A stretch of 64,000 nucleotides of DNA. Source: Branchiostoma floridae. Lineage: Eukaryota; Chordata; Leptocardii; Amphioxiformes; Branchiostomatidae. The stretch covers positions 32,789,628 to 32,853,627 of the forward strand of contig NC_049981.1 in the NCBI RefSeq assembly GCF_000003815.2, in the 5' to 3' direction. The notes below the pieces were generated by a model, which was not told the DNA's origin, ran no database searches, and was given only the letters and a program-made list of their open reading frames with translations. Numbering within the stretch: position 1 is the stretch's first letter; each line of letters opens with the position of its first letter. This document shows positions 6,563 through 64,000 of this stretch, one piece after another. A program made the translations under genes and the position numbers.

Positions 6563-6876
6563 NNNNNNNNNNNNNNNNNNNNNNNNNNNNNNNNNNNNNN
6601 NNNNNNNNNNNNNNNNNNNNNNNNNNNNNNNNNNNNNNNNNNNNNNNNNNNNNNNNNNNNNNNNNNNNNNNNNNNNNNNNNNNNNNNNNNNNNNNNNNNN
6701 NNNNNNNNNNNNNNNNNNNNNNNNNNNNNNNNNNNNNNNNNNNNNNNNNNNNNNNNNNNNNNNNNNNNNNNNNNNNNNNNNNNNNNNNNNNNNNNNNNNN
6801 NNNNNNNNNNNNNNNNNNNNNNNNNNNNNNNNNNNNNNNNNNNNNNNNNNNNNNNNNNNNNNNNNNNNNNNNNNNN
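6563..6876. other. Assembly gap inside the last exon of gene 4
   Basis: A run of 314 N. By comparison with genes 1-3 the missing sequence contains most of the C-terminal FReD exon and its stop codon. Confidence 0.95.
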
Positions 6877-9800
6877 GAATAGCCGGAAAAGTACAGGCGG
6901 TACCCGTCCGATTCACCGGACAGCCTGGATGGGAACATTACGTCATGTGTTTGTTTGAATGCATTTGTGAAGATTACTCACCCATGCAGGTATTGAAGAA
7001 TAACGGTTTACTTCCATCTACATCTACATCTACTACCTACATTGAGCTACATCCAGTTCGTCTATACCACTGGATAACATTCCAGACGTTTCAGAACTAA
7101 CCCGATTACTTTTTACCAGTAGAATCCCTGTTAACGGAGCCTCAGAGCCCTCTTTCGGAAGAATCTCAGATTCGGCCAGATCGATATCTCTACCCCGATA
7201 TACGTGTGCCATGTTTGTATACTAAGCTTGTCTCATAAAGAAGCACTGACCTGAAAGTGCTATAAAAGGCGAAACGTTTGTTCCCTCCCCAATCCTCCAT
7301 GTCAATTCTTAACTGGTGTTTTTTAAAGTTTGTCAGGAGGTGAATGTTCTCGTTTCCAAGCCAAAATTCCCCCTTTTCGTCTCCAAAGCCCAGTTTGTAC
7401 TCCTCCCAGTTCCGGTTGAAAGGAACCGACCCGTCCTGCCGCCGCTGGATCACAGTCCAGCCGCCGCCTGTGTAGAGGTACAATCGACAAGCTTAACACT
7501 ATAACCTTGGTGGTCAAGGAATCTTATAGAATAGTCAAGAGATGTTATAGAATGATTGCACATAAATAGATGTACGCATTTGTAAGTCTAATATGTTCAG
7601 TCCCAGAAAAAGAACGATATTTTTGGATATTTGTCCTTCCTATTACTGTATATATGTACAAAATTGTACCAAGGATTTATTCATTTACCAAGGATCATAC
7701 TAAATAGGCCCTTGATAAGAAATTCCCACCTCTCGTGGACTAAGTAGGAAGAGGAATTGGCATAACCAGTGTAGAAAAGAAACATTTACAACCACGATAT
7801 GCAATCAGGTGTATAGTACCTGCAGTGTCCATGTCACAGTAGGTTCCCATCCTGTCAGGGTAGAAAAACATGGTGTACACGCCACTTGCTGTCCGTCCGG
7901 AGGCATAGTACTCATCGCAGCCTGTAAAATCTGTGGACAATATATGTATACATATATATAACTTTATCACATTACAAACGACACTGGACTGAGCCTAAAG
8001 TCTGTGGAAACAAGTGAAAAGGACCGTGCAACTTGGAGAGTTCTGACTGATAGGAGCAAGGGGCCAGTCACTGGCCTAAACACTTTGGCAGGCAGGCTTA
8101 ACTTTTTACAGGATGACTTGTGATGGCAAAACCTTTGTAAGCATAGCCAAATACAATTCATTCTATACAACTGGACAAAGAAGACGAGAGACATCCATGA
8201 GNNNNNNNNNNNNNNNNNNNNNNNNNNNNNNNNNNNNNNNNNNNNNNNNNNNNNNNNNNNNNNNNNNNNNNNNNNNNNNNNNNNNNNNNNNNNNNNNNNN
8301 NCATCTGTGATGACGTAATAAATCGCCATGGTAATGAGATGTGGGAAACCATGTCCATGAACATGGATAGTTGATATGAATGATTTAAAATGGGTGTCAA
8401 AAAGACAAACATTTTGATGCTATTTTTTAGAAGTCAGCTATGAAGCAAAACTAGCTATGAAATTGAATTTCTAACCTGCGCGAATCCTTCCCGTTTCGGC
8501 AGTGCCAACTCGCTGAACTTCCATTGGTCCCCCTGGAAGTCTGACCTGCTGAAAATAGCCTCTCCAAGGCTGCTGCTCCCGCGCTGTTTCACGTAGACGT
8601 TGAGGGTGCCGACTTGCGTGCCGTACATGTTGTAGTTAAAGTTCAGACAGAGGTTGTTCTCCATGTTTAGCGGTGCGCTGATGAGCCGAGCCGTGTCACC
8701 TGCGGTACCGCCACTGGCCTCAACGTACATGTAATTCCCTGTGGGGGTGACAGGGATTACGTTAGGATGAAGGACCATATTGCAAAATGTATTGCAATTT
8801 ATTTGCTACTCACCTTCGAAAGAAAGTGCATTGGTAGCAAGGCAGAAATATAGCTGATAAATACACGAAGAAATGACGTACGTATTATTATATTCATAAA
8901 GGTTGATTCAGCATGGCCTTCTGATGTACTTGGAATGGAATACAGTCAAACCTGTCTACAACGGCCGCGCAAGGGCTGGAGAAATGTGGCGACTATAGAC
9001 AGGTGGCCACTATAGAGAAAATGCTGATCATTTGATCGAGCAATAAGTTACATATGATTTAAGTACCCACTGATCTATCTCACCAAGTAAGATTGTCTCG
9101 ACCGTCTCAAAATTCAACTGTCCCTGCATATGCCAAAGTCAAATATACTGAAAATTGCCATGCGCATTTTTTTGGTAAATTCGCTGACAAAGACTAAGAT
9201 CTAATGTTCAAGGCACGCGTTCCTTCCGCTGCCTCCAAAGTGACCCTGTCTGGAACTCCAAATCCTCGCAATCTACGATTTTAAACCCAGCGCAGGGTGA
9301 CATACGGCCGCTGTATGGTCGCAATATGCAGTGTTTCTGTAACATACGGGACCGTAAATCATGTGGCCGTGGCCGCGTTTGACAGGTGGCCGCTATGGAC
9401 TATTTCTTAATGCTTAGGTTAATCTTTTAATCTTTATTGCATATTCATGCCCGAGGGCTAAATGCACAAAGGGACCACATATGGTCTTATGGATGCAGAG
9501 GAAAAAAAAGAAACTAGACTACTACAATGGTTTTAAACTAGTCTAAATGGAAAAGGAACTAAGACACTATGTGTTACAATCTCTAATGGCTGCTTCTAAC
9601 ATGTTCTTCTCTCTTTTTGAAACACATGGAGACATATTTACATATTGTGTTGATAGCATGATCGTCCTTGCATAACATCAAGTACTTAAACAAGTCTTGT
9701 TTTGACATTTTCTTACAGATATTGTCTATTTGCAAAGTATTAAATAGGGATTGGCGTTCGTATTCATATAATGTACACTCTAGTAAAAATGTGTCTCGTC

Positions 9801-12800
9801 TTCAAGATACAAGTGGTCACAGAATATACATGTTCTATCATTTAAAGGAGTACGGTTATGCCTGCCGGATTCTATATGTAATGGATGGTCACTTATGCGA
9901 AATTTACTCATAGCTTTGCGATGTTCAAAGCTTGAGATGCTAAGATACGTTTCTCTTTCATATGTCTCTTTGAATGTTTTGTACGTTCTCAATTTGTTTC
10001 CTTGGTTTCCTTTTCGTCGAATTGCTTGCAGTTCTGAATGAAATTTTTGGGTGAAGATATCTTTCAACCTTTGCTTTAGTTGATTTAGATGAGTGGGTAC
10101 GTTAGAGTGACCGTTTACATACAGGTAGGCAAAGCCGGACTCCTCTAAGAGTTTCCTTACATCAGATAGCCAGCAGGGTGTTTTACGGCGATCTAGTTCC
10201 TGCTGTGTCATATAAGCTTCATATTGAAGACTATCTGTGTGCACTTCGTTTGCTAATCTAAAATAATAACTATACATTCTGCATTGAGCTTCAATCCACA
10301 AGGGGAAACGCCCCAGCTTCGCTCTACTTGCAAAATTACTAGCGTTCCTTCGAACACCTAGGATGTATTTACAGAATTTCAGATGAACGGACTCTATCGG
10401 GGATTTGTCGTTCAATTTGCTATTGCACCAGACTTCAGATCCATACAATAAAATCGGTAGGATACATGTGTCGAACAGTTTGCAATGTAAAGATACAGAA
10501 GATCTAGTTAATGGGAAAATCCAAGGGACCGTCGAAAAGTGACCGCAGTGGCCAGGTGACCAGTATGCAAAGGTGGCCGCTAATACAGGTTCGACTGTAC
10601 TGATATTATTCGCCCTGTCATTTAATTGTAAACCTAAAATTTCAGGAATCCACCACTGTTGTATTTCGTCACTACAGGTTTACCATTTTCTGGACATGCA
10701 TGTCGGCTACGAAATCCTCGTATCAACTTCTACTCGTAGGATTCCACTACGATTTGATAGCACAGCTGGGTTTTAGTCCTTGAAAATCAAGCTATTTATT
10801 CTGCTGGCTATTCGGTTGCCGACATTCTATCTTCTTTTGCTCCTTAATTTAATCAGTATCAAAGTCAATCCTCTGCAAGACTAAACATGTTATGAGCTGG
10901 TGGGCTATATTCACATCGGTTACCGTTGTACAGTTGTACGATATAACAAGGGAAGACTCAGCAGTACATTGGAATAGTTTCAACAACCATTATCATATAG
11001 TAAGACGACGTCGACCAATCGGAAGTCCCCATTTCCTGTTGGTTATGACGCTATAACACAGAATTGCGGCGAGCCGGGTAATAGATAAAAGTGTTAAAAA
11101 GAAATGTTAAATGATCAGACATCGAATCCAATCAGAAGGAGCAATTCACAGTGCACTCACCAATGAAACTAATTGTTTCGTCCGCCATTTTCGAACCAGA
11201 ATCATGGAACGAGAGGACCGCAAGGTGCCTTTTTTCTGTCAAGAAATCTCAGAGACAGATTTACGCTCATTTTTCGAGTCACGGGTGGCTGGGGAAGACG
11301 CCATGGAGCAACAGCCAACAGCTGACGGGCAGGAAGCTCAACAAATTGGGCAAAACGGCACGAGCAAAGGCGCGGGTAGTTTGGATAAGATATGATACTG
11401 CCGTTGATGACCCGCCTATTCCTCAGTGTATGAATTACAAATCAAGCTCATTCTCTTCAATCACTAGCTAGGTGAATGTATACGGTGGTCATACACCTTG
11501 TAACAGACCATCAATCATCAATTATACTGTACCTGTGCTGTTGCGAAACGTGTTGTCATGGGGCGGCCCAGTGTTACTGGTGGGGGTGTGCTGACTCCCC
11601 CAGACCCAGTTGGTGTCGTCTGTTGTGTCTTGTGTGAAGCCACATCTAGCAGCTCCATGCTGGAAATCACAGCGTGGCCACAGGTCTAAAAAAAGGGAAA
11701 TACAAAAAATATATACTTGTTTTGCCATTTTGAATATTTCTATGTATGTATGTATGTATGTATGGAATATCTCATAGGGGGTACGGAAGATCACCTATGT
11801 AAAGAATCAAAAGGTTACATGGAATTAGAAAAATTTATTTAAAAAAACGTTATGATGATGTACTATACCGTTGTATCGTTGACGAAGTCGTTATGCTCAA
11901 TAGTCAATACATATGCCATGATACAGTAGACATAAATCAAATTGGTTATTTGTCTAGATGACATTTTAAGGGAAAGATGTAATTCAATGAAGATTAGGCA
12001 TTATAGTAACCACTAAAATACTAAAGTATGTCGACAAGGGAGGGCATGATGCATGGCCTTGAAAATAACTCTTCCCTTGCGGAGCCATACTGTGTTGAAA
12101 TGGACGAAGTGCGGCAGCTACATTCTGAGATCTTACCTGGAAGTTCATCTGTTGTGGCAAAAGTCATTCTGAATAAAGTTAAACTGCAATTTTTCAAGAA
12201 ATTGGACTTACCCAACTTTACGAATGATCAACGCCAGTCTTTTCCGTAGACTGTCTGAGACATATGTTCCACTGCTCACCGGGTCACGCATGCTGTCTAT
12301 ATACTGTGACATTTAGCGATTAACTGAGTTTATTAGGTTTATTGCGATACCCTTTAGCTCAGATTACTGAGTTTGGTAGCTTTAGCGTTAGCCGTTCAGG
12401 AGTTATGCGCCTTCAAATTAGCAGAGGCCCCCAAAACTCCTCTAGACTCTCATAATAGGGTTAGTGCTAAACGTGGCCTTTCTGATCTTTTGCATCAATA
12501 ATTATAGATACATGGAATAAATAACACCTTAACATGTCCAAATATTCCTCTTTCATTGAGGAAGCAATGTATGTACAACGATCACCGATAAAAGTTAAAA
12601 AGAAGACTTTATTGAACGGACCCCACTACTAGGTCATTTCAGTCGGAAAAAAAAGGTCGGGTGTTAGAGGGGTAATGTAGCAAGAAGACCTGGAAAATTC
12701 ATTGTTAGAACCAAAATTAGCGATTTTCGTAAAAAATGCATTTAAACAACCGGTTGCCATGGCAATACGTAAAACTGGAAAACTTCTCAAATTTTGTGAA

Positions 12801-15800
12801 ATTGTTGCCAACTACATTTTAGGACAAGTCGCTAAATTTGGCGGCTCTAGCTAAGCCGTTCAGGGGTTATGCGACATAAAAGTTAGAGCAGGCCTAACCA
12901 TCATTCAGTATTTGTTTCCACAGAACTGATCCCTAGTTATGTTGTCTCTATGCGTTTTTGAACGAATCTTCAAAACTTGCAATAAAAATATAAAAGCAAT
13001 CTTACCATAAGAAGAAACGCCAGCGTCCTCGCCGATCGCGCAGTCGTGATACTCCCAGCCGTTGTGCGGACAGTCGGCCAGTCTGGACTCGTTCCCGGTA
13101 CAGGCCACCTGGTCCATCCAGATGTCTCCTCCACCCCGCCCGAAGGAGTGCTGGGAGGAGACAGGCCACGCGTAACGGTAGCCCAGCTGACGGCACACCA
13201 CCTTCGCGTCCTCGTCTCCCCACCGGTCGTTACAGATCGTTCCCCACTCCCCGTAGTGAAGCACTTCCACTCGTCCTTCAGCAGCGGTTTTCCCTCCGAC
13301 AAGGCGTACTGTTGAGATAAAAGGTGAACAGAAAATGATTCAACGAAATCGGCGTGATAAAGCCGTGCCTGCGAATCTGCAGCTGGAGTGTTACGTACGT
13401 ATACGCTAGCCTATACCAGGATGGATAGACAGAGAACACGCCAGAGAAGTTAAGTGACCACGGAGTACAGTATGCGGTCTAGAGTGATAGGCGGAATAGA
13501 GACGCTGGCCAAATCTGATTCAATAGTTGCTATAGACCGTTATTAAATTTGCTATCCAAAACTATCATAAATAATACAGTGAAACTGAAATAAGCGGGGG
13601 AAATGTATTCTCCCTGATGTTGTTTTATTCTCTTTTAACGCAAAATTTCAGACACTCAAGAATCTGCATGGATTTTGAAAACGTTAAGACGTTTAAGGTA
13701 GCATCCAAAATCTTTTGTCAGTGACAAAAGTAAATTCATTAGATTTTTAACACAAATTATGAACTGATATTTAAATGAAGTGGAACCAAATTGTTTACAT
13801 CCCAATTGGAAATAAAACGTCAATACAATATTACAGCTAATGAGCCAATATCTGTTGTGCGAGTACAGGAGCTAAATGTTCGTTCCATAATGTTTGACGT
13901 ATGTATACGTTTGCCCACTAGCATTATTGCTATGCTCAGCACGATTCGTCATTATATCGCTGTCACATTATCCACGATCTTCGGGCGTATCGATGGACGA
14001 TCGGCCATATTTAAGATCGACAGAGGGTTGCGCGTATTTTTCACCTGAAAACCGTCCCTATCACATATAAGCAATACTTTGTAACGTAAGGTTACCAGTT
14101 TACGGTCGATTTGTTAATACTGCCGTTTTATGGAAAGCGCGCAGGTCGGGAAGTGAAAAGCTGTCCTTAATTGGAAGACACCAAAGTCGATCTGCGTCAA
14201 GCTCTATGTGGCATCATATTTCTTCTGAGGATTTCTCGCCGTACGAGCGTCTTTAATAAACAAGTCTGCAGCCAAGAATTCTTCCAGGGTGACCAATTTA
14301 CGGTCAGTTGGGTGTTTCTCCATGAGGTTACTTTTCTAAAGGACATATATCTGATCATTTCCCTTAAAAGTCCCCCACGTAGTGGACATAACACAATGGA
14401 TAAATTGTTTACATATGGCCATGCCGCCACTTTGCATCGCCGCTAAACGTTATCGGTAAGTCATCTTTGCCCCAACAGAACGCCACTCAGAGCGCCATGA
14501 TATGCTGTTCGACAACTTGCACAATGCTACTCATAATAATGACAACGCATTTTGATGTTGTTATCACCTGTATAGATAGACCCGCCCGGCGAGGACAGTA
14601 ACTTGTTTTTATGCAGTTTATAGGAGTTTCCTTGGACAACATACATAAAATCACCATGCATTCTTGAGATAAGAACTCCAGGTTTGGTTTGAGGTGATGT
14701 TTCAATTCATAAAGAGTTTGTTGGATTTTAAAGAGGGGACGAAAATAGCCGTCTAGAATTACGATCAGAACCGGGTCATCTGTAATAGTGTTGTGCGCAC
14801 TCAAGCGTAAATGTAAATTGTTGTCGGACTTTTCAGACGTGATTTGCTGGATGCAAAGTTATAGGATAAATAAGGCAAGACACATAGATGATATAAACGT
14901 ACTTCTTTCCTACTCAAGAGAATTTTCTTTTTTACAATTGACCTCGAAGTCTGCATCCACCAATAAGTGACCGTAAACTGGTCCTGCACGTAAACTGGTA
15001 ACCTCACGTTACCTTGAATAATTGTTGTGCAATAAAGTTATTATAAGCGAGGTTCGTGCGATTGCCGCAGAATCGTCGTCCGATCGATTTTCGTATAATA
15101 AATCTTTTCTGTAACGTTCGCCGCAGACACGCGCGTCTCTCGTCTTGAGCGACGATTATAGGACGGTTATGCTTCTATCTTATATGACCTGTATGTTTCG
15201 TGATATGCAAATGTATGCTGTTAATAATGTTATTGTACAGTTGATGTTGTTTCATGTGCGGAAAGGCAACCTGTAAAGGTGTGTTCGCACCTATCCCCCC
15301 CCCCCTTCACTCTGTGATAAATTCAACTAAAGAAAACAACAGACCTCTGTCAGAGATGTTTTACCGAAACTGTCGGTACTTACCTATAACCGCATTGGAA
15401 TTTGTTTAGTTAAGGCTAAATATCTGGTGGACTGCACATGTGTAGTCCAACCATCATCCTATAAAAAACAATCAATCGATGTTTTACAAAATCCCCTGTT
15501 GATATAGAAAGAATGGTACTTACCGCAGGCATCCGTTATTATTCCGACATCATCGATGGCAATGTCGCCGTAAGCGCCGCTGCCACGAACGGTCTCGAAA
15601 ACAATCTGTGATGATGTAATAGATTGTTATGGATATATGTAGGAAACCATGAACATGTATGGTTGATATGAATGGGAAATGTTGGGCTCTTACAATTCTA
15701 CACTGAATGCGCCACCAAGACGCACCAACACTACTGAACAACTTGCTACCTGAGGCCTACATCGAGAAACTCGTCTTTCAACATCCTAACACAGTGTGGC

Positions 15801-29500: not shown

Positions 29501-29519
29501 ACCACGTTAGGGCCTATTT

Positions 29520-31461: not shown

Positions 31462-31777
31462 TTATGGTCTGATTTTCATAGACACAGACTTCAGGGAGTA
31501 GCTGTAGCCTCTCCAGTTGTACCACAGCACACCTTGTCCCCACGGACAGGAGTTCCCACAGTTGCCCAGGTAGCGCCCGTTGAGGACAGAGGTGCTGCAG
31601 CCCGGAAACCACCAGCCGCCCTGTCCCCATCGCTGAGAACAATGGCCGATGCTCCAGGCATCATTGTCCCTGTCCAAAGTGGAGAACCTGTGACCGTTGT
31701 TGTGAGCCATGGAGTCTCTCGCGGTGCCTGAATACCCGGAAATGTGCAGGCGATACCCGACCGCCTCACCGGACACC
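31462..31777 (-). CDS. Gene 3 exon 8 (FReD C-terminal part)
   Basis: 316 bases, phase 2 to stop. It encodes [26 protein letters not shown] with the D-R-D-N-D calcium loop, [25 protein letters not shown], and [12 protein letters not shown] before TAA. The GWW..C..LNG and SLK...M.IRP phrases are standard FReD signatures. Confidence 0.9.
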
Positions 31778-43124: not shown

Positions 43125-43130
43125 CCTGCT

Positions 43131-44325
43131 CTGTGGGGGGTGCAGCATTATGTTATTTTCCCTTCTTTAATATATATCTTAAGAGGTTAAATGAGTCAGA
43201 TGTAGACACATAAGCTTTCATCAGAATAATTACTTGACTACAGTCTAGATAGTTGTGTATAGATCTCATATTGGGTTAACCAACATACTAAGGTGCTTGT
43301 ACGCTCTCGCTTCGCGACATTGGCACCCATAATCTTGCTGGATCAAGGTCAACACCAGGTCACCGCCAAGAGTGTGCAAACGCCGAACATTTGGAAAAAG
43401 CAGAGAGAGATGATCACACGGGAAGGAAGCACAAAGAGAGGACGAGAGAGTAGGCAAGCACGCGAGACCAGAAACCGACAAAACGGAGTGGTTAAACTTA
43501 AACAAAATTATAAATTATAACAACAACTCTGAATCGAATTGCTAGCTGGATTGATAAAACACTGTTTGTAAACCACGTTGCGGAAAAAAATCTGTCTCCG
43601 GAATCTCAAATATAGTGCCCCCCTCCCCACACGACAACCCTCCCCACACGACAACCCTACCGAACACGTCTGCTTATAATTTCTACTTTTCTCTACACTA
43701 GTCTATACACGTGACTAAATTCCCGGTTTTGTGCGGCCCCAATAGGCTCGGGACTATTCAGGATTAAAAAGGAAGCATTCCGTTACCCACCCTGCTTGTC
43801 GTGACCTAACGTAGCGATCTAGTTCAAGTGTAATCGCTAAATTTCCTTGGAACTTTTGAGAAAATACTGTGAGGAGCATCCGGAGAACGAGGACACGTCA
43901 ACAGGGTCAAAGGTTATCTCGCACTACCACCTGATTATCACAATATGGTCAATGTACCAAGTTTGAGGTTACCAGTAAGACCGGTAGAGGAAAATCGATC
44001 GTAGCTCTATTGGTTGTACATTTTTTTTTTAAAACTTCGGCGCTATTTTCATCGTGACACGTGTTGGGCAGCATCGGCAAGATGGCCACACTTATGCGAC
44101 ATGTTTTGCGATATCTGAGGGAGTTATCTTGTGTAATAGCAGGTTTGGACATACCTCCGCTGTTGTCAGACGCTAGTTCACCTTTATCCGCGGGGTAACC
44201 TATATCCGTTGTATGCGGAAAACAGGGTATTTAGGACTCATTTTAATATGTATATCAATTCGACAGACAGTGGTTTCAAACTGCAATATTTTCAATACTG
44301 TACTAGTAGTAACATCCATGTAAAC
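43131..44325. other. Region upstream of the zinc-finger exon
   Basis: Contains the 3' splice acceptor at 43131-43132, so an upstream non-coding or short coding exon of the zinc-finger gene may lie here or beyond. I cannot place it. Short C-rich runs near 43620-43650. Confidence 0.35.
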
Positions 44326-46731: not shown

Positions 46732-47047
46732 TTATGGCCTGATTTTCATAGTCACAGACTTCAGGGAGTATCTCAAGCCTCTCCAGTGGACCCACAGCAC
46801 ACCTTGAAGCCGCGGACAGGAGCTTCCACAGTTGCCCAGGTAACGGCCGTTGAGGTAGGAGAAGCTGCAGCCCCCAAACCACCAGCCGCCCTGTCCGCGC
46901 GCCTGGGAACAATGGGTGCTGCTGTAGGCATCATTGTCCCTGTCCACAGTGGAGAACCTGTGCCCGTTGCTGTAAGCCATGGAGTCTCCTGCGTTTCCAG
47001 AATAGCCCGAAACGTGCAGGCGGTACCCGTCCCCCTCACCGGAAACC
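46732..47047 (-). CDS. Gene 2 exon 7 (FReD C-terminal part)
   Basis: 316 bases, phase 2 to TAA. It encodes [52 protein letters not shown] and YSLKSVTMKIRP. Calcium loop and C-terminal signature are intact. Confidence 0.9.
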
Positions 47048-50000: not shown

Positions 50001-53000
50001 TTAATTTGTAGCTTTTCCGTGTGGTCAGGAGGTGGGTGTTGTCGTTCCCCAGCCAGTATTCTCCGTTCTTGTTCCCAAATCCCAGTTTGTACTCCTCCCA
50101 GGTCCGGTTGAAGGGAACCGACCCGTCCTGCCGCCGCTGGATCACGGTCCACCCGCCTCCTGTACAATCATATACCATACGGAGAAGTAAAATGATATGT
50201 TGCTCACCAATACATCGTTACGCTGCGACAAACTCAGAGATTTGTGACTTCTCAGAAAGATGAGGAACTGAAGGTTTATAAGTTGACATCAAGTAGACTT
50301 GGGTCTATAGTCACGGAAATCGAGGAGATAAAAAAATTGAATGAATGAGTGAATGAATGAATGAATGAATGGATGAATGAATGAATGAATGAATGAATGA
50401 ATGAATGAATGAATGAATGAATGAATGAATGAATGAATGAATGAATGAATGAATGAATGAATGAATGAATGAATGAATGAATGAATGAATCGTTTCGGTT
50501 AATACATCGCAGCCGGGGAGGCTGAATTACGTATCACTTACAGGCTTAACATGTATATCATAAATCCATCCATTAATAAATAGATATATAAATAACATCC
50601 ATTAGAATCTGATACACATCAAAAACTAACTCATGGATAAAACATGGATAAAAACAATGGAACTATCCAGCAAAGCACCAACCCACTTTGTTGACAAACG
50701 ATATCTCAAATGAGCGAAATTGCTAAATATATTACATGTAAATACTGATCATAAAAGCTTAAATAAGTCTAAAGTATATAAGCATTTGCATCACATATCA
50801 TCGTTAAGTAACCTTGTCAGGTATGGAACAGATGAGTCTCTATATCTGTTTGTTTTAGATAGACCTGAATTTGTTTGAGTTTCTAGTATTCATACTGCTG
50901 TCATCGCTCATTCTGGGTGGAAGTAGTTCCTGGTCTATCGTTTTGGCGAACGTTTACATTAAAGTACACAAGGTTACTCGTCTGTAATGCAGTGACTTCA
51001 GACCTGAAATAGTTAGGGCCGTTTGGTAGTCTGTGTACTTATCACCGAGAATTGTTCTAAGCGCTCTCTTTTCTACTCTTTCCAGCCTTGCAGTCTGAGT
51101 AGTGGTGAGTCCTGGCTGCCAAACCGGAACAAAATATTCTAACACTTGTCTAACATAGGTCATGTAGATCTGTAGTAGGTCGTTGACAGAAGCTGGATGC
51201 GTTTGAGTCTGCGCAGCATTGCGAGGCGTCCACCTGCTTTGCCGATCATCGTGTTCAGTTATTTGTCCCATTTCAAGTTGTTTTGGATCCAAACCCCCAA
51301 GAGGTACATCGCGCATACCACTTCCAGCTCCGTCCGATCGATGAGAAGGACGGGATGTGCGGGTGGGCACTTCATAAAACACACAACCATGGCCTTGTAT
51401 TTACCTGGGTTTAATAACATGTGATTTCTTTGACCAGTCATTGAAAGAGTTCAGCTCCAGTTGCATAGACGATGGTGTGGTGCATCTACGTGACTCTGCC
51501 AGCGATAAATCATCAACGTATTTCCATATTTCTGCAGCTGCGATTCTCATGGCATCATCGAATACTACCAAGAAGATTGATGGACTCAACAGTGTCCCTT
51601 GGGAACTGAACATGTTAGGGTTTCCCAATTTGATAGTTGGCCCCCGTAGCGGACTCGCTGACGTCGTTGTGTTAAGAAGTCACAGATCCAGGGGATAAGC
51701 GAACTCTTTGCTCCAATATTGATCAATATTTGTATGGCTAAGTCTCTCAGTTTTTAAATGAGAAAACTGAGAGACATGGCTGAGATTGTTGGTCATAGTT
51801 ACGTTTTTAATCACAAAACACCAATTGAATCGGCAGACGATCAAACAGAGATGGTTAAGGGGTCCTATTTTACTGCTTCAAATCTAGTATGCAGATAAAA
51901 AAACAAGACAGTTTAGCTAAATACCTTAACAAGACAAACTAACAGATTCCAAAGTTTTACTTCAACATTACCTTCGTCATCCATGTCACAGTACGCCCAC
52001 ACACTAGATGATGACAAATCAAAGGTGTAGACTCCACTGGTATTCTGTCCTGATGCATGGTACTCTGCGCAATCTGATGGACGGAAAAGAAATTAACAAA
52101 GTACATCTCGGAAACTTTGCAATGTATGAAACACCCCTGTGATTATTAGATTGATGTTTTCTATTTTGAATAGACCAAAAGCTATAAAGGTCAAACAAGT
52201 TAAGACTATGTTGATGCAAATGAGTTAATTAGCTCCTGTTGTTTAAATCACAGGAGCTAACTGGCACTACCCAAACCACCATGTGAGTTTCCGAAACGAA
52301 TAATGACGTAATGTGATTATCCTGTAAGGCTCAAGTCCCAACTCCAAACCCGGGCAGCTTTCGGAAACGACAAATATGATATAAAAGGCAAAACAACACA
52401 CAGGAAGTAAAGAATAGTCATGAGCATAATATGTGTATATTCCTTCTTGATAAACACTTTTTTCCGTTTCTACAACATCCCGGTCAGGCCTCTGTTTTGA
52501 AAAGGGACTTAAGCCTAACAGAAATCTTGAACCTGTGAAGAATCCTGGTGTTCAAAGCAAAAGAGGGGTGTTTATTTGGCCCGAACGTTTATGTTACTTA
52601 AAAGATAGTATCATTGCTGAATCCAATTAGAAAATGTTGTATTTTATGGTCATATACCAATGAAGCCTACTGATCAGGACCCCAACATGCTTACCAGGTG
52701 CAGGTACAGGGCTGGGACTTGAACAGCAACACTGGAGAAAGACATGTGATGACCATGTTAGTACCAAAAGTATAGGAAAAAAGTATTGTCATTGAACTGT
52801 GATCAGAAGATTAAGAATTGAATTTTCAAGTTTAGATGCTAGGATTATATTTGCCTTGGCGTGTTAGTATGAGCCTTCAAGATACGTCGACTTGACTGAC
52901 ACCACACATTTTTGTCTGATTCGTTTCAATAAGAAGATGAAGACAATAACAGAGATTTTTAATGTAAATTATGTAGTTCTGACCTAGAGAAGAAAAACAA

Positions 53001-55256
53001 ACAAACATAGTACATAATTGTAACTATGAAATGAAGAAGCGATAAGAATAAGAAGCTTTCAAACTAGCTATAGGAGGTTTACATCTCCTTTAAAACTGGT
53101 CCACACTCCTGAAGGAACAGGTTTAGGTTATATAGTTACCGAGGGGGGCGTCATCGTACCCTGTTGCTTCGTGTCTGTTGCTAGAGAAACCGAGGCGGGC
53201 ACCATTGCCCTTATTGTCACTAGTCTGTTGCTAAAGCACTTCTCACAGAGCAAGAAAATTGTTCGGGACCGAGTCTGCGTGCTCTAAATGACATTTCCGA
53301 TGTTCTCTCGATCATGTCGGGTTTTCGAGAATCGGCCGATGTTCTCAGGTCTCAGGAGGGATATTTTAAGCCAAGATATAAGCTCGATTTTAAAATCTGG
53401 CGATAAAGAAATACGACCAAAGCTCTTCGACTGTATTTACAGAGGCTTAACAACTCTTCAAGCTCTTCTCTTTTCTTTTCTCCTGCAAGTTAATATCAAG
53501 ACGAACTTACCGAACCAGGAGGCCCGGGTGGGCCAGGGGGTCCGGTCGGACCGGTGACCGAGAGTCCATCTCTCCCATCCCTTCCGGGTTCTCCTCTCTC
53601 ACCGGCTAAGCACCCTTGAAGTTGAAGACAGCAATTTGACAATGAACGAGTGATGACCGGGACCAGGGCCGCCACTTTCCAACCCCCCTTCCGATCTGAA
53701 ACACTCTCTTGTAAAGTGACCTCATGACCCTGCCAGATCATCTAGGCCACAGAGTTGAAAAAGGGGGTCCGTATAAAAGCTTGTAGAGGTCCCTTCATTT
53801 AGGCATGAGCACCGGTCTCACAGAGATCCAAGTGATTCCAGTTGAATTGATAGTGTTTTCGGTAAAAATCTCGCCCCACCTAAAAAATGTGCTATTATCA
53901 TGCTATCGAGAACGTGTAAATAAACACCATCTACGGTACGGTATTAGTCAGCTATATATCATCTTTCTGTCGAGTATATGCAGCAACTCTGGGAATTCAA
54001 AGATCCAACCCTTCCAGACCGAAACAAGCCCAACTATATAATTACCATATCATTACGTTAATATTAATACCATCGTTAGAGTTATGTGTATAACTCTTGT
54101 ATCATTCTAAACCTACAGTTTGTGATTTGTACCAAGCTAATTCTAGAATTTACTGTAAAACCTTTTTTCGGGTGGGCGATATCGCTAGAGGGGGCGAGGT
54201 GTGGATGGGTGGGGGGCGAGATCAGTGTTGGAGTTCGGTGTTGGCGGGCAAGATCGCTATGACACCGGTTTAGCTCTGTTAGTTCATGAAGATACTGATT
54301 ACCTTTGCCAGAATGGCTAACAACAAAAATTGTAGCATTCTTAATTGTGTAAAAAGGTTACAAGAAAATAAAGTAATGTGTGTCATTCTTACCTCCTAGA
54401 GTCGTGGGTAGTGTAATCTTGTTGGCAAAATTCCTGATGTTAGACACAGATCTCTTAGCTCGGTGATGCACTTCAGCTCCGTACAGAAAGTTGGCGCTTT
54501 TGCCACGCCCTGCTCCATTCTGCTGCTCATGGACACTTGGGCCCTGAGGACTCACCTGATGGGCGACATTAGATGCTCTCAATTCACTCGGTATTGTTAG
54601 GCTGGCAGTGTCGGGACCTTGTCGGATGTTTTGAAGATCAGTCTGTCAGTAAAGCTGTAGTCTCGCTCGTCAGGGTGACAGGTTGGCGACGGTCCAACTC
54701 TGCCTATCCTGATCTTTGAACTCGTTTACAGGGCCTGCTGATCCAGACTTCAGGCCGCAGGGAACTCATTTACGCATTACTCATTGAACACATACGCTAC
54801 ACGCGCTACCGCGTGTAATGCGTTAGCTGTAATAATCTTGGCTTTTTCACTGCTATTAGATAAAATGTACGTGTAGAAATACTAAACAAATCTGCTCACG
54901 ATTCAATACTTTAATTTATGATTTGTCGTTTAGCGTCCTAACCCACCACCCTGATCCATTGGCCCGAAAAATGTAACATTTGGAGTTTGTTGTGAACTTG
55001 TGTTCGATAGACATACCTGCGTATCCAGGTGTTCTCCCCACTGTCGCATCTCCTGCATCTGCGCTTTCATATCCTTCAGTTGAGACTTCATTTCTGTCAG
55101 TTCCGCCCCCTGCCTCACCAGTACAAACATGGTGAAGAAACCTACAAGCACCGCCACTACGGCCACCATTATGGCCGTCAGCACTGCGATTATCCCCAGC
55201 CTATCCCGCTCTGCCCCGTGTGCAGAGGAAGTCATTTCGAGGCTTTTGGAGCCCAT
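46732..55256 (-). CDS. Lectin gene 2: type II membrane collagen-fibrinogen-like protein
   Basis: Seven exons join with GT/AG sites and consistent phase: 55256-55017, 54555-54393, 53614-53511, 52731-52695, 52073-51972, 50159-49943 and 47047-46732. The coding sequence is 1179 bases, 392 aa. Order: 20-residue tail, transmembrane helix about 21-47, coiled coil about 52-80, furin-type RAKR at 112-115, interrupted collagen run, CCC linker, FReD. Closest to gene 3 in domain plan and sequence. Differences: no 48-base linker exon, an interruption (GLSVT) in the collagen run, and Trp for Arg at the FReD middle/C exon junction (STFW for STFR). Introns are inflated by three insertions. Proposed role as for gene 3, inferred. 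Confidence 0.82.
47212..48274. mobile_element. Inserted repeat with inverted ends
   Basis: The site in gene 3 is empty. The block begins TAGAGTTCGGCG and has TACCTCCATGAA near its left end and TTCATGGAGGTA at its right end. The inside holds a CAGACAGACACACAGACA stretch near 48215. No coding frame. The phrase ACTAGAGTTC recurs at 15945 and 17625. Confidence 0.6.
48441..49863. other. Second insertion in gene 2 last intron
   Basis: Absent from gene 3. Its right part (about 49660-49863) is a copy of the repeat that ends in AATAGGGTTAGCAC; compare 21872 and 63718. The rest is not recognised, and no domain is seen in its short frames. Confidence 0.5.
49943..50159 (-). CDS. Gene 2 exon 6 (FReD middle part)
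   Basis: 217 bases, phase 1 to 2. It encodes [39 protein letters not shown] and LDDWSGATKFAEYSTF. Confidence 0.9.
50336..50491. repeat. TGAA microsatellite (retrotransposon tail)
   Basis: About 155 bases of TGAA repeats with few errors. On the minus strand it directly follows an L2/CR1-like 3' region, so it is the ATTC tail of that element, probably expanded. Confidence 0.85.
50954..51705 (-). pseudogene. L2/CR1-like reverse transcriptase, C-terminal fragment, frameshifted
   Basis: Three overlapping frames together show SSQGTLLSPSIFLVVFDDAM, KYVDDLSLAES (catalytic YVDD), LNPGKYKAMVVCFMK, LLGVWIQNNLKWD, YVRQVLEYFVPVWQPGLT and RVEKRALRTILGDKYTDY. These are in the order expected of the RT and thumb region. 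At least two frameshifts, so it is inactive. Confidence 0.8.
51972..52073 (-). CDS. Gene 2 exon 5 (FReD N-terminal part)
   Basis: 102 bases, phase 1 to 1. It encodes DCAEYHASGQNTSGVYTF and VWAYCDMDDE. Confidence 0.88.
52074..52694 (-). other. Gene 2 intron
   Basis: About 620 bases, AT-rich, with a TAGCTCCTG / CAGGAGCTA pair near 52230-52258. No coding content and no counterpart of the 48-base linker exon of gene 3. Confidence 0.45.
52695..52731 (-). CDS. Gene 2 exon 4 (Cys cluster linker)
   Basis: 37 bases, phase 0 to 1. It encodes CCCSSPSPVPAP. It fits by splice sites (TCCAG / GTAAGC), phase and similarity to gene 3 exon 4. Confidence 0.72.
52732..53510 (-). other. Gene 2 intron
   Basis: About 780 bases without recognisable elements. 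Confidence 0.4.
53511..53614 (-). CDS. Gene 2 exon 3 (interrupted collagen repeat)
   Basis: 104 bases, phase 1 to 0. It encodes CLA then GER GEP GRD GRD, an interruption GLSVT, then [14 protein letters not shown]. Interruptions give collagen helices a bend; here it may be a recent insertion relative to gene 3. Confidence 0.87.
53615..54392 (-). other. Gene 2 intron
   Basis: About 780 bases. A GGTGGGCGA-rich patch near 54170-54250. No gene is recognised. Confidence 0.4.
54393..54555 (-). CDS. Gene 2 exon 2 (juxtamembrane part with furin-type site)
   Basis: 163 bases, phase 0 to 1. It encodes VSPQGPSVHEQQNGAGRGKS, FLYGAEVHHRAKRSVSNI and ITLPTTLG; RAKR-S at 54451-54462. Confidence 0.87.
54556..55016 (-). 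other. Gene 2 intron 1
   Basis: 461 bases, nearly the same as gene 3 intron 1 (36684-37144), including the CGCTACCGCGTGTAATGCG palindrome. Confidence 0.55.
55017..55256 (-). CDS. Gene 2 exon 1 (cytoplasmic tail, transmembrane helix, coiled coil)
   Basis: 240 bases, 80 codons: MGSKSLEMTSSAHGAERDRL, a hydrophobic helix (AIMVAVVAVLVGFFTMFVLV), then LTEMKSQLKDMKAQMQEMRQ. An upstream in-frame ATG exists but is not conserved in context. Confidence 0.87.
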
Positions 55257-59532: not shown

Positions 59533-59845
59533 TTATGGTCTGATTTTCATAGACACAGATTTAAGGGAGTAGTCGGAGCCTTTCCAGTGGTACCACACCA
59601 CACCTTGCCAGGCTGAACAGGAGCTCCCACAGTTGCCCAGGTAACGCCCGTTGAGAACGGAGTGGGTGCAGCTGTTAAACCACCAGCCGGCATATCCGCG
59701 CGTCCGAGAACAATGGCTACTCCAGACATCATTGTCCCTGTCCAAAGTGGAGAACCTGTGACCGTTGTTGTGAGCCATGGAGTCTCCCGCGGTGCCTGAA
59801 TACCCGGAAATGTGCAGGCGGTACCCGTCCGCCTCACCGGACACC
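59533..59845 (-). CDS. Gene 1 last exon (FReD C-terminal part)
   Basis: 313 bases, phase 2 to TAA, one codon shorter than in genes 2 and 3. It encodes [40 protein letters not shown] and [12 protein letters not shown]. Confidence 0.9.
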
Positions 59846-62800
59846 CTGGGTGGGAAAATTACGTCATATCATTGTTAGATTTTCTGAAGATTACGTATCC
59901 ATGCAGGTATTAAACATTAATGTTTAAGCTCAATCCACATCTACATCTACATTGAGCTACCCCCAGAAAGCCCCATTAGAGGGAAAGTGGTGGTGGGTGT
60001 ATGAATGTATTTGATGCATTTTTGCCATTGTATAGTCAGTCAAACAGAAATCATAGTCATGATTTCAATATCCTTTAGCTATGATTGTTAACTGAATTCA
60101 TCATCATACTTTGAATTTTCGTAATGCCTAAGATCATGACTTCGCAAAATGTCTTCCGTTTCGTCTGTGTAACTATGCGCTTGTTTCAGTTACGTACGTA
60201 TGTATGTATGTATGTTTGTATGTATGAAAAGATCAATCGTATTTGTGTACATGCGTGTATCAGTGTAATGGTAAAAATAGCGTTCTGCCATTCCACCGGT
60301 AGAGATCACTATCGGAGTCCTTGTTGACAAAGATCGCGACAGGATCTCTGCCTGTACAAGCGGCAGTTCTAACGGTAGAGATCCCGATCGGAGTCTCTGC
60401 CGACGGAGCCTCAGATCGCGATGTTTTTGCCATGTTTGATAGCTTGTCCCATTAAAAAGGACAAACCTGAAAGTGCTATAAAGGGCGAAACGTTTGTTCC
60501 CTCCCCAATCCTCCATGTCAATTCTTAACTGGTGGTTTTTAAAGTTTGTCAGGAGGTGGATGACCTCGTTCCCAAGCCAAAACTCCCCCTTTTTATCTCC
60601 AAAGCCCAGTTTGTACTCCTCCCAGTTCCGGTTGAAGGGAACCGACCCGTCCTGCCGCCGCTGGATCACGGTCCACCCGCCTCCTGTGTAGAGGTACAAT
60701 TGACAAACTTAACACTATCACCGCGGACAAGGAATTTTATTGAATGGTCAAGGGATCTTGTAGAATGGACATGAGTATCATAGAATGATTGTAAAAAAAA
60801 TAGATGTACACATTTGTAAGGCAAATATCTTTAGTCATGTAGAAAAAGAACGACATTTAAAAAAAAATTGTCCTATCAATCATATGTGTACTAGATGTTC
60901 ATAAGCAGCCTCTTGATAAGAAATTTCCACCGAGCAGTGAAATTTTAATTGCTTAGGGAGGAATGAGAATTGCCATTGCCAGTGTAGAGAAGGAAAATTT
61001 ACAGACAAGACATGCCAATAATAAACAATCATGGGGAAGTTTCAGCAGGTTTACAGTACCTGCAGTGTCCATGTCACAGTAGGTTCCGATCCGGGTAGGG
61101 TAGAAAAACATGGCGTACACGCCACTCGCTGTCCGTCCTGAGGCATAGTATTCATCGCAGCCTGCAGAATCTGTGGGCCAGAATATATATATATATATAA
61201 CTTTATAAAGCAGGACGCGTAATGACAAAACCTTAGCAAATGTATTTAATGTTATTAGCAACTAATAATTTTGGCATAATGTATTCAGTTTTGATGAAAG
61301 TAGTGGGATGAGATTTACATTTGTTGAAAATAGAAACATCAGCAGACGTGCTACTGACGGGGGCAAAGTGGCTGTTATTACTCAATTTGACCAACAGCAA
61401 ACTAAACAAATTATATATATCATTACATCTTTTAACCATAATTTCCTGTTTGTTTCCACAGAACTAATCACTAGTTAGGATGTCTCTATACGTTTTTGTT
61501 GAACAAATCATACAAAAAGTACGAAGCCTAAAAATCAACCTTACCATAACAGGAAACACTGGCGTCCTCGTCGTGCGCGCAGTCGTGATCCGCCCAGCCG
61601 TTGTGCGGACAGTCGGTCAGTCTGGACTCGTTCCCGGTACAGGCCACCTGGTCCAACCAGATGTGGCCGCCGCCCCGCCCGAAGGAGCGCTGGGAGGACA
61701 CAGGCCGGGCGTAACGGAAGCCCAGCTGACGGCACACCACCTGCGCGTCCTCGTCTCCCCACCGGTCGTTACAGACCGTTCCCCACTCCCCGTAGTGAAG
61801 CACTTCCACCCTTCCTTCGGCAGAGGTGTTCCCGCCGGTAAGACGTACTGTTGAGATAAAGATGAAAAGAAAAGGGTTCAATACGTGGGACAAGTCGGCG
61901 TGATAATGCTGTGGTTGCTAATCTGCATCTGGTGTTATAACGCAACAGAGGAGTTAGCTAAAGTCAAAGACAATATACAGTTTGCGGTCTAGAGTGTTAC
62001 CCGTAATAGAGACACTTGGCTATTCGGATTGAATAGTTTTGTTTTCGAAATGGTATCCATTAGACATCCAGGTAATAAGATACGCCAAAAAGCAGTTACT
62101 CAAGCAGCTGGATATGATATTGGAAACGGTTAGACGTTTCAGATAGTATCCACTATCTTTTGTTAATGACACTGAAGTGATCTGGAAGAAACTGGCCCCT
62201 TTTTCAAGTTCAAGTTCATTCCTTATCCGATACAGCATGTTTAATGCATTTATGCTGTACAAAATCCCTTGTTGAAGGGTACTCACCGCAGGCATCCGTT
62301 ATTATTCCAACATCATCGATGGCAATGTCGCCGTAAGCGCCGCTGCCACGAACGGTCTCAAAAACAATCTGTGATGATGTAATAAATCGTCATTGTGATG
62401 ACATGTAGGTAATTATGAACATGTGTGGTTACCATTAAAGGTTTCATCTACTAGTATTTTAGTAGTAAGTCATATTATAAAAACATCAAACATATGTCAT
62501 TTGCTATGACCAAAGAATTGACGTAACATAATGATAGAACGAAAAGAGCTCTTTATTAAAGAGACCAACAAATTCGAATGCAACTATTCCACAAACTGTT
62601 TGATTATGTTTTCAACTCAGAACTTCATTGTGCAAACTGGCCGTTTCTAACTATGTTTTTTCCCGTGTCCTACCAAAATATCCGGGGGGGGGGGGGGAAC
62701 CAAGACTTGCGCTTCCACCAGTCAATATACTAGAATACCATTTGTACAGATTTATTGCATCTTGTCAATCAATCTGTTATTTTGCCTTTATGTGTTTGTT

Positions 62801-63443
62801 CAATAAAAAAAAATCGAATTCCATCCAAATTTCTCCACGTTTCCAGACAAAAAGAAAACTACTCTTAACATCATAAAACCCACACAGAGTTACTTATTAG
62901 CCTAGAGTACTCGCTCACAATAGTGTTAACCTAGCCTCTACCAGGCACCACAGGTCGCTAGAAAAATAGTAAAAATTGGTCAGATGAGACAGAAAACACG
63001 CCAGAGGAGTACCGTTTGCGACCGGCCGGACAACACTCCTAGGCCAATTAACCCCTACTTGGCCAAAGTCCCCTATTCGGCCATTCGGGTGTCTGGTAGA
63101 GAGAAGTGTTTACCGTTGTCTGTCATTTTGTCACTCGCAATTAGCCTTCGGGCACAAATCTATTAACTTGTATTTCTAACCTGTAAGAATCCTTCCCGTT
63201 TTGGCAGTGCCAACTCGCTGAACTTCCAGTGGTCCCCCTGGAAGTCTGACCTACTGAAAATGGCCTCTCCAAGGCTGTTGTTCCCGCGCTGTTTCACGTA
63301 CACGTTGAGGGTGCCGACTTGTGTGCCGTACATGTGGTAGTTAAAGTTCAGACAGAGGTTGTTCTCCGTGTTCAGCGGTGCGCTGATGAGCCGAGCCGTG
63401 TCACCTGCGGTACCACCACTGGCCTCAACGTACATGTACTTCC
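59533..63443 (-). CDS. Lectin gene 1 (5' part outside window): MAM-SRCR-fibrinogen-like protein
   Basis: Six exons are visible: 63443-63181 and 62368-62287 (MAM), 61847-61545 (SRCR), 61161-61060, 60683-60467 and 59845-59533 (FReD). All join in frame. The first MAM exon and anything before it lie beyond the right edge, so the protein should continue N-terminally, perhaps with the same membrane and collagen part as gene 4. Here the FReD follows the SRCR directly, without a second MAM. Its FReD middle exon is nearly identical to that of gene 4. Confidence 0.82.
59846..60466 (-). other. Gene 1 last intron
   Basis: Holds a GTAT microsatellite near 60195-60230 and two copies of a GGTAGAGATC...ATCGGAGTC phrase (60300 and 60380). 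No coding content. Confidence 0.5.
60467..60683 (-). CDS. Gene 1 FReD middle exon
   Basis: 217 bases, phase 1 to 2: [33 protein letters not shown] and [16 protein letters not shown]. Confidence 0.9.
60684..61059 (-). other. Gene 1 intron between FReD exons
   Basis: 376 bases related to 7468-7819. No coding content. Confidence 0.5.
61060..61161 (-). CDS. Gene 1 FReD N-terminal exon
   Basis: 102 bases, phase 1 to 1: [18 protein letters not shown] and GTYCDMDTA. Confidence 0.88.
61162..61544 (-). other. Gene 1 intron after SRCR
   Basis: 383 bases. The part next to the SRCR exon matches 12905-13005 of gene 4. No coding content. Confidence 0.5.
61545..61847 (-). CDS. Gene 1 SRCR exon
   Basis: 303 bases, phase 1 to 1. 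It encodes [51 protein letters not shown] and DASVSCY, with all six cysteines. A complete SRCR domain in a single exon. Confidence 0.9.
61848..62286 (-). other. Gene 1 intron between MAM and SRCR
   Basis: 439 bases, related to parts of 13309-15523 (words near 61895 and 62122). Confidence 0.5.
62287..62368 (-). CDS. Gene 1 MAM C-terminal exon
   Basis: 82 bases, phase 0 to 1: [20 protein letters not shown] and GIITDAC. Confidence 0.9.
62369..63180 (-). other. Gene 1 intron within MAM
   Basis: Contains a poly-G run near 62683-62698. A fragment at about 63128-63160 (CAATTAGCCTTCGGGCA) matches the 3' end of the retrotransposon at 23764-25985. Confidence 0.5.
63181..63443 (-). CDS. Gene 1 MAM middle exon
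   Basis: 263 bases, phase 1 to 0: [34 protein letters not shown] and WKFSELALP. Confidence 0.9.
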
Positions 63444-64000
63444 CTATAGAGGAACAAACAATACATTACAGTGAAGAAGTGTATTCCAAGATTTTTAATT
63501 CTCTGTAGAATTTGACCTTTTGTCACAGGAAGAGGGGATCGGACACGTGCCCCTACCAATTTCGTAATACACGTTAGTTTACATCTTGCTACATTTTGTA
63601 TTTTGCGTAGTCTGGTTTTCAGTGAAAAATACGGTAAACTCTCGGGCTATTTTGCAATTTAGCGAGCTCTAGCCGATCTAAAAAAATCGGCCGACGTTCG
63701 CTTGAACTGAGAGGCAGGCTTAACCCTATCTAGACCAGGGGGGGGGGGGGGCTAAAAGTGTCTGCGCTAACTTTGACGTCGTATAACTGGCGAACGACGT
63801 GTGCTAGGACTACGAAACTTGGTGACTTTTCCTAAAATATTGTTAGCAACAATTCTAAGAAAAAAAATTTAGTTTGTGATTTTTCGCGTTGCCATGGCAA
63901 CGGGTTTCTGACAGGCATATTTTCCCAAATTTACTAATTTCAGCTTGAATTATGGGATTTCATAGTTTTATTGCTAGATCAAACTTGTTTATTCATATCA
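63444..64000 (-). other. Start of upstream intron of gene 1
   Basis: Includes TTAACCCTATCTAGACCAGG and a poly-G run near 63718-63750, an end of the repeat family also seen at 21872 and 49860. The expected first MAM exon is not reached. Confidence 0.5.

Follow-up and report, generated by a model that had tools for sequence, protein, structure and literature searches.

The window analyzed here, a 64-kb stretch of Branchiostoma floridae DNA, holds four neighboring genes, A, B, C, and D, all on the minus strand and all with a FReD as C-terminal domain. We think it somewhat more likely than not, although well short of certain, that they form a tandem array of paralogues encoding type II membrane proteins, built of a short tail, an anchor, a coiled coil, a furin-type site, a Cys with a collagen stretch, a linker, optional MAM/SRCR domains, and the FReD, which would act in trimeric recognition and could be shed.

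The gene models were built from the genomic sequence, with exon borders picked by hand for GT-AG ends and open frames, so that both features are partly built in; in these models, all 28 introns fully readable between two modelled exons are GT-AG (5 in A, 6 in B, 6 in C, and 11 in D). Exon lengths are equal modulo 3 between paralogues, including the linker (37, 73, and 112 bases). Pfam Fibrinogen_C matches all four genes, with values from 1.2e-42, for the visible part of D, to 3.5e-70. The four same-strand FReD genes and the splice sites given in the preliminary description of this DNA are borne out, as is a locally duplicated gene group whose predicted products are anchored and combine a collagen stretch with a FReD. 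Exon lengths, described there as exactly shared, are so for the 217-base exon (four of four genes) and the 163-base exon (three of three where visible), but the 102-base exon is found in two of the four genes (B and C), with 111 bases in A and D, and the last exon has 316 bases in B and C, 313 in A, and is interrupted by an N gap in D.

Genes B and C share one order: hydrophobic anchor, heptad coiled coil, RAKR-S, Cys and short collagen, Cys-rich linker, and FReD.

Gene B
55017..55256, minus strand: exon 1, N-terminal tail, hydrophobic anchor, and coiled coil, 240 bases (exon model, hydropathy)
54393..54555, minus strand: exon 2, furin-type site RAKR-S, 163 bases (exon model, motif)
53511..53614, minus strand: collagen exon, Cys ahead of Gly-X-Y, 104 bases (Pfam Collagen 17.9 bits, under cut-off)
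52695..52731, minus strand: linker exon, starts CCC, 37 bases (exon model)
51972..52073, minus strand: exon F1, 102 bases (exon model)
49943..50159, minus strand: exon F2, 217 bases (exon model)
46732..47047, minus strand: exon F3 and stop, 316 bases (Fibrinogen_C 1.3e-66)

Gene C
37145..37375, minus strand: exon 1, tail, hydrophobic anchor, and coiled coil, 231 bases (exon model, hydropathy)
36521..36683, minus strand: exon 2, furin-type site RAKR-S, 163 bases (exon model, motif)
35996..36084, minus strand: collagen exon, Cys ahead of Gly-X-Y, 89 bases (Pfam Collagen 22.0 bits, under cut-off)
35648..35720, minus strand: linker exon, starts CCC, Ser/Thr/Pro rich, 73 bases (exon model)
32943..33044, minus strand: exon F1, 102 bases (exon model)
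32290..32506, minus strand: exon F2, 217 bases (exon model)
31462..31777, minus strand: exon F3 and stop, 316 bases (Fibrinogen_C 1.7e-67)

Gene D, which extends over about 20 kb with long introns, has a front like that of B and C, with MAM-SRCR-MAM inserted ahead of the FReD, and its coiled coil is extended by 21-base (one-heptad) repeats.

Gene D
27028..27393, minus strand: exon 1, tail, hydrophobic anchor, and coiled coil, 366 bases (exon model, hydropathy)
26096..26258, minus strand: exon 2, furin-type site RAKR-S, 163 bases (exon model, motif)
23417..23523, minus strand: collagen exon, 107 bases (Pfam Collagen 24.8 bits, under cut-off)
22916..23027, minus strand: linker exon, Pro/Thr/Ser-rich, without CCC, 112 bases (exon model)
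22336..22488, minus strand: MAM1 first exon, 153 bases (Pfam MAM 3.7e-69, two stretches in D)
19731..19993, minus strand: MAM1 second exon, 263 bases (exon model, Pfam MAM)
15524..15605, minus strand: MAM1 third exon, 82 bases (exon model, Pfam MAM)
13006..13308, minus strand: SRCR exon, 303 bases (Pfam SRCR 2.1e-29; PDB relatives)
11533..11685, minus strand: MAM2 first exon, 153 bases (exon model, Pfam MAM)
8476..8738, minus strand: MAM2 second exon, 263 bases (exon model, Pfam MAM)
8202..8303, minus strand: expected MAM2 third exon, an acceptor-like end and the first two bases, then a 100-base N gap in which the exon presumably lies
7820..7930, minus strand: exon F1, 111 bases (exon model)
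7251..7467, minus strand: exon F2, 217 bases (Fibrinogen_C 1.2e-42, visible FReD part)
6877..6924, minus strand: exon F3, first 48 bases, the remainder expected in the N gap 6563-6876

Position 6563, the lower limit given previously, is the edge of this N gap and not a gene end.

In the three genes where the region is visible (B, C, and D), hydropathy indicates a single hydrophobic stretch near the N terminus, which is long, follows an N-terminal tail, and precedes the coiled coil. The heptad signal was reached by 0, 2, and 1 of 5000 shuffles in B, C, and D, respectively, with segment ends chosen by the analyst. These three genes had been proposed to begin with a type II transmembrane helix and a coiled coil; the anchor, as judged by hydropathy, and the heptad coiled coil stand, and we infer the type II orientation from hydropathy and domain order, the charges flanking the anchor showing no clear preference for it.

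B, C, and D (the last up to its first gap) each have a single R-x-[KR]-R site, RAKR-S, in an equivalent position between anchor and collagen, where we predict cleavage. Exon 2 is 74-89% identical between the genes; RAKR is not kept better than the whole exon, and the 3' part of the exon is conserved as well as the site. According to PMC7848082, furin-like enzymes cut collagens XIII, XXIII, and XXV directly ahead of the first collagen domain, and the ectodomains of ectodysplasin and the colmedins are secreted. Since a furin-type site before the collagen, present in all three visible genes, predicts a shed form, the cell-surface receptors of the preliminary description may be only half of the picture.

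A collagen exon was found in all three genes with that region visible. The Gly-X-Y stretches are short (8-10 triplets per gene, interrupted in B), scoring 17.9, 22.0, and 24.8 bits with Pfam Collagen in B, C, and D, respectively, against a cut-off of 27.2 bits, and in none of the three was a lysine or a GKxG motif found. If the N-terminal hydrophobic stretch were a signal peptide, these proteins would be secreted ficolins with a role in complement activation, and the putative cut would indeed leave a chain starting 20 residues ahead of Cys-collagen-FReD, a ficolin-like order. We consider this improbable, given the length of the hydrophobic stretch, the coiled coil next to it, and the lysine-free collagen, as the collagen lysine of ficolins is the MASP contact. 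The missing lysine motif is not decisive, because an amphioxus ficolin without collagen, BjFCN1, still works with MASP according to a 2024 survey (PMC11312191).

Gene A comprises at least MAM-SRCR-FReD, as detected by Pfam, and extends past the window at its 5' end, as had been stated. No exon upstream of the MAM second exon was found inside the window; we assume a front half with anchor, site, and collagen lying outside it.

Gene A
63181..63443, minus strand: MAM second exon, 263 bases (Pfam MAM 1e-25, profile positions 45-157 of 158)
62287..62368, minus strand: MAM third exon, 82 bases (exon model, Pfam MAM)
61545..61847, minus strand: SRCR exon, 303 bases (Pfam SRCR 3.6e-32)
61060..61170, minus strand: exon F1, FReD start, 111 bases (exon model)
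60467..60683, minus strand: exon F2, FReD, 217 bases (exon model)
59533..59845, minus strand: exon F3, final FReD exon and stop, 313 bases (Fibrinogen_C 3.5e-70, joined model)

The presence of MAM and SRCR domains in two of the four genes, D (MAM 3.7e-69, SRCR 2.1e-29) and A (SRCR 3.6e-32, MAM 1e-25), means that the group is not uniform. The preliminary description had named neither these MAM/SRCR exons nor the linker exon or RAKR-S. Both kinds of module have phase 1 at both ends, and therefore their gain, loss, or skipping leaves the frame intact. Among the matches listed, the only strong tblastn hits of the D and A modules were the known exons of these two genes, with no strong MAM/SRCR remnant in any intron of B or C.

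Alternatively, these exons of D and A might come from independent genes lying in the interval from the collagen to the FReD exons, the family proper being only anchor-collagen-FReD. The size of D and its long introns would leave room for this, and domain architectures derived from genomes can be prediction errors. Nevertheless, nested genes seem unlikely, as the exons share the strand of their neighbors and follow one order in both A and D, the phase 1 of the module borders matches the linker before and F1 after, and the joined exons have no internal stop codon. The MAM-SRCR-FReD order, identical in A and D, also argues against a chance join.

Class A scavenger receptors have a type II anchor, a coiled coil, and collagen, some members ending in an SRCR or C-type lectin domain, and resemble the anchor, coiled coil, and collagen seen here together with the SRCR of D. 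Among single-SRCR PDB chains, SR-A and DMBT1 are tied for the best score with the gene D SRCR (105.5 and 105.6 bits, respectively); CD163 heads the SRCR table only through nine summed stretches, its best single stretch reaching 90.3. These receptors are grouped with type II collagen-like proteins in PMC7848082. The four genes could accordingly encode cell-retained receptors of this type, serving ligand uptake with the furin motif unused, a possibility to which we give limited credence. Against it, RAKR-S lies, in all three visible genes, where transmembrane collagens are cut, although the exon is well conserved throughout. Compared to SR-A, MARCO, and SCARA5, the C-terminal domain is a FReD and not an SRCR, MAM domains and a furin-type site are present, and the SRCR is internal and restricted to two of the four genes, being absent from B and C.

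The acetyl-binding S1 pocket comprises, in FIBCD1 numbering, Tyr405, His415, Tyr431, Ala432, and an aromatic residue at 443, which is Trp in FIBCD1 and Tyr in TL5A and L- and M-ficolin, as described in PMC3908420. We placed these residues through a by-eye alignment to FIBCD1, in which A, B, and C are readable and D is not. In A, B, and C, respectively, His415 is replaced by Thr, Ser, and Ser, Tyr431 by Ala, Arg, and Trp, and Ala432 by Trp, Leu, and Gly, so that all three readable FReDs differ at these positions, which also speaks against secreted ficolins. Position 443 is Ser, Leu, and Tyr, C keeping the ficolin-type Tyr, and Tyr405 corresponds to Arg, Arg, and Trp, an uncertain placement owing to a one-residue insertion. 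The Asp-x-Asp of the calcium site is retained (DRDND in A, B, and C). In both PDB searches, the closest solved FReD was that of angiopoietin-2 (208.6 and 214.6 bits, versus 174.3 and 176.7 for FIBCD1), a similarity that is no orthology test. The three replaced pocket residues, the lack of lysine in the collagen, and angiopoietin-2 as the closest solved FReD weaken the earlier label of ficolin-like lectin and make it doubtful.

Ficolins combine collagen and FReD and are secreted. The predicted cut product, Cys-collagen-FReD, resembles them, but the long N-terminal hydrophobic anchor, the changed acetyl pocket, and the lysine-free collagen stretch do not. FIBCD1, with a type II anchor and a FReD but without collagen, is similar in its anchor, if our predicted orientation is correct, and in its FReD, and differs in that a collagen exon is present here in all three visible genes and that its pocket residues His415, Tyr431, and Ala432 are replaced in all three readable ones. 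The colmedins gliomedin and UNC-122 are likewise type II, with a collagenous part, a globular head, and a secreted ectodomain (PMC7848082), shedding being a prediction here; their head is olfactomedin instead of FReD, and two genes here contain MAM/SRCR. No olfactomedin family was found among Pfam matches up to E 0.01. The MACIT collagens XIII, XXIII, and XXV have a type II anchor, as predicted here, and a furin-type site directly ahead of their first collagen stretch (PMC7848082), and differ from the present proteins, which have only 8-10 Gly-X-Y triplets and a C-terminal FReD.

By analogy with colmedins and MACIT collagens, the products of the array are most likely recognition proteins of the cell surface, trimeric and open to shedding by furin-like enzymes. 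The coiled coil would nucleate the trimer, whose collagen segment would fold away from the membrane, giving a recognition protein on the cell surface. Proprotein convertases could then cut after RAKR and free an ectodomain of ficolin order, Cys, collagen, and FReD, which in D, and perhaps in A, would be longer, with MAM and SRCR arms. We tentatively suggest, as a scenario with less in its favor than the reading just given, that a ficolin look-alike evolved in an animal lineage from a type II membrane precursor, with convertase-released Cys-collagen-FReD oligomers, frame-neutral MAM/SRCR cassettes as alternative arms, and piece-exchanging tandem copies that preserve the FReD frame and vary in their ligand pocket. 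None of the papers listed in our searches of the openly accessible literature describes a protein built in this way. The array would provide an amphioxus collagen-FReD protein that is membrane-anchored, has a possible shedding site, and is without the known sugar pocket. If true, this would represent a second route by which collagen and FReD are assembled into a recognition protein, and would clearly exemplify how intron-phase-matched domain modules are gained or lost inside a tandem array.

Across the paralogues, amino-acid change is selected against overall, with a pooled dN/dS of 0.28-0.39 in six comparisons between genes, computed over the exons other than collagen and linker. The ratio is higher in F3 (0.52-0.64) than in F2 (0.16-0.32), which suggests that the terminal part of the head is less constrained; within F3, the second half showed no significant relative excess of amino-acid change over the first (Fisher p 0.10, 1.0, and 0.10). 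The altered sugar pocket and the proximity to angiopoietin-2 in both searches would also suit ligands acting in development or adhesion, in the manner of angiopoietin or gliomedin, instead of immune proteins, which we regard as conceivable and the less probable case. Local duplication and copy-specific pocket columns, as seen in three genes, fit recognition of varied targets better. Three of the five pocket columns fall among the 8 columns, of 104, in which no two of A, B, and C agree (hypergeometric 0.003; three genes, by-eye alignment, one of the 8 columns including a gap), a hint that pocket columns may be over-represented among those varying between copies.

Four paralogous FReD genes follow one another along the minus strand: A, whose 5′ end lies beyond 64000, then B, C and D. 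By predicted architecture, their products are of one kind with colmedins, ectodysplasin, class A scavenger receptors and MACITs, type II membrane proteins that combine a collagen-like part with a head at the C terminus. Motifs, reading frames and a self-comparison of the window served to find the exons, which were then joined into gene models. B (392 aa) and C (396 aa) consist of an anchor, a coiled coil, a furin-type site, a Cys-collagen stretch, a CCC linker and the FReD. D can be read for 655 aa up to the first gap, and part of its FReD is visible beyond; it shares this front, except that its Pro/Thr/Ser linker lacks CCC, and continues with MAM, SRCR, MAM and FReD. The visible part of A is MAM, SRCR and FReD, and no exon further upstream was found within the window. 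The preliminary description of a tandem array of membrane-anchored collagen/fibrinogen-like lectin genes mentioned no MAM or SRCR domain, no linker exon and no protease site, and the lower limit that it set for the array, 6563, is the edge of a gap.

Ten sequences, five of them gene models or pieces, were searched against Pfam, and PDB searches agreed with the resulting domain calls.

Pfam matches (E-values; bit scores for Collagen, all below the cut-off of 27.2)
A: Fibrinogen_C 3.5e-70; MAM 1e-25; SRCR 3.6e-32
B: Fibrinogen_C 1.3e-66; Collagen 17.9 bits
C: Fibrinogen_C 1.7e-67; Collagen 22.0 bits
D: Fibrinogen_C 1.2e-42 (visible part); MAM 3.7e-69 (two stretches); SRCR 2.1e-29; Collagen 24.8 bits

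For the SRCR of D, CD163 heads the PDB table because nine stretches are summed, none of them scoring above 90.3 bits; among one-domain chains the top scores per chain are those of DMBT1 (105.6 bits) and SR-A (105.5 bits), with further matches to SCARA5 and MARCO. MDGA1 is the best match for MAM. Wherever both ends are readable, the MAM and SRCR modules start and end in phase 1, which makes them frame-neutral.

GT-AG borders occur at all 28 introns (5 in A, 6 each in B and C, 11 in D) that lie between two modelled exons and are readable in full. Because exon borders were picked to keep the frame, more independent support comes from the lengths of paralogous exons, equal modulo 3 despite differences in size, and from dN/dS.

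Exon lengths (bases)
Exon 1: B 240, C 231, D 366
Collagen exon: B 104, C 89, D 107
Linker exon: B 37, C 73, D 112

Pooled dN/dS (Nei-Gojobori, collagen and linker exons left out) is 0.32 for B-C, B-D and A-D (the last without MAM), 0.28 for C-D, 0.39 for A-B and 0.36 for A-C. Single-exon values spread more widely, F3, the third FReD exon, being highest among the FReD exons (0.52-0.64). The exact sharing of exon lengths claimed earlier holds for the 217-base exon (4/4) and the 163-base exon (all three visible), not for the 102-base exon, which has this length in only two of four genes (111 in A and D); "about 316" for the last exon is an approximation (316, 316 and 313, one cut).

B, C and D all begin with a short N-terminal tail and one hydrophobic stretch, whose neighboring charges leave the orientation unsettled. 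The heptad signal that follows is strong, reached by 0, 2 and 1 of 5000 shuffles, respectively, and the coiled coil of D is extended by 21-base repeats of one heptad each. The only R-x-[KR]-R site found, RAKR-S, lies in exon 2 of all three genes. Since exon 2 is conserved throughout (74-89% identity between genes), this site is not outstanding by conservation alone; by analogy with transmembrane collagens, what marks it out is its location before the collagen. A passage of PMC7848082 states that furin-like enzymes cut collagens XIII, XXIII and XXV directly before the first collagen domain, and describes ectodysplasin and colmedins as type II collagen-like proteins with secreted ectodomains. 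Cleavage at RAKR-S would release a predicted chain of 20 residues, Cys, collagen and FReD.

The best solved relative of both FReDs queried is angiopoietin-2 (C 208.6, A 214.6 bits), ahead of FIBCD1 (174.3 and 176.7 bits) and of ficolins. FIBCD1 binds acetyl groups through Tyr405, His415, Tyr431, Ala432 and Trp443, adjoining the calcium site, according to a section of PMC3908420. In a by-eye alignment of A, B and C to the FIBCD1 record, the calcium motif DRDND is retained and the Cys pair NCGxSC lies in the same loop, but in the pocket His415 is replaced by T/S/S, Tyr431 by A/R/W and Ala432 by W/L/G; position 443 reads S/L/Y, and Tyr405 R/R/W, the last uncertain because of an insertion close by. 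The label "lectin" is thus unproven, and binding in the ficolin/FIBCD1 mode is unlikely. Nevertheless, C retains aromatic residues at 405 and 431 and has Tyr at 443, as in TL5A and L-/M-ficolin, so its pocket may be altered but functional. Three of the five pocket columns fall among the 8 of 104 F3 columns that differ among all of A, B and C, one via a gap (p 0.003, for three genes aligned by eye), and the balance of amino-acid and silent changes did not differ significantly between the two halves of F3 in any of the three pairs.

These proteins differ from ficolins in having no lysine in the collagen stretch and an altered acetyl pocket, and the signal peptide that a ficolin would need is unlikely here. 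They differ from FIBCD1 in possessing collagen, from class A scavenger receptors in having a FReD as the C-terminal domain, and from colmedins in lacking olfactomedin. Searches of the open literature brought up no protein of this architecture in the papers that they listed. A survey states in one part that collagen-bearing ficolins were lost in cephalochordates, a point on which its introduction is inconsistent (PMC11312191); provided that the window is amphioxus DNA, the array bears on this loss in domain content only.

MAM and SRCR occur only in A and D, which are mutually closest in F1 and F2, as B and C are in exons 1, 2, F1 and F2. F3 departs from this pairing: the A-C silent distance is 0.20, against 0.87 in F2 and 1.48 in F1, the last a noisy estimate from 33 codons. 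Within F3 it is also smaller than that of B-C (0.28), and this pattern suggests exchange between copies. About 1.3 kb before the ATG (upstream of 27393 in D, 37375 in C and 55256 in B) are 85-89% alike. D matches B or C at 85% of aligned bases there and at just 54-55% over the first 100 alignment columns past the ATG, so that what the genes share upstream stops close to the start codon; this likeness may reflect shared regulation or gene conversion. Within D, 22328-22917 matches 11525-12138 and 19653-20191 matches 8414-8936, and the second MAM appears to be a copy of the first made within the gene.

Other features of the window are the following; the retroelement frame between B and C sits mostly between the two zinc-finger frames, and the style of the zinc fingers is reminiscent of amphioxus.

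9783-10679 (-), 299-aa open frame in a D intron, without Pfam hits at E ≤ 0.01
33497-34264 (-), 256-aa open frame in a C intron, likewise without a match up to E 0.01
23764-25836 (+), 691-aa open frame in a D intron, on the opposite strand, a retroelement judging by its reverse-transcriptase match (RVT_1, 1.3e-38)
40525-41964 (+), 480-aa open frame between B and C, RVT_1 (4.2e-30) and DUF6451
41994-43166 (-), C2H2 zinc-finger frame between B and C (Pfam)
~39805-40587 (-), C2H2 zinc-finger frame between B and C (by similarity)
765-1132 and 39434-39815, dispersed repeat, 90.6% identity over 383 alignment columns
50338-50490, TGAA microsatellite of 38 copies in a B intron
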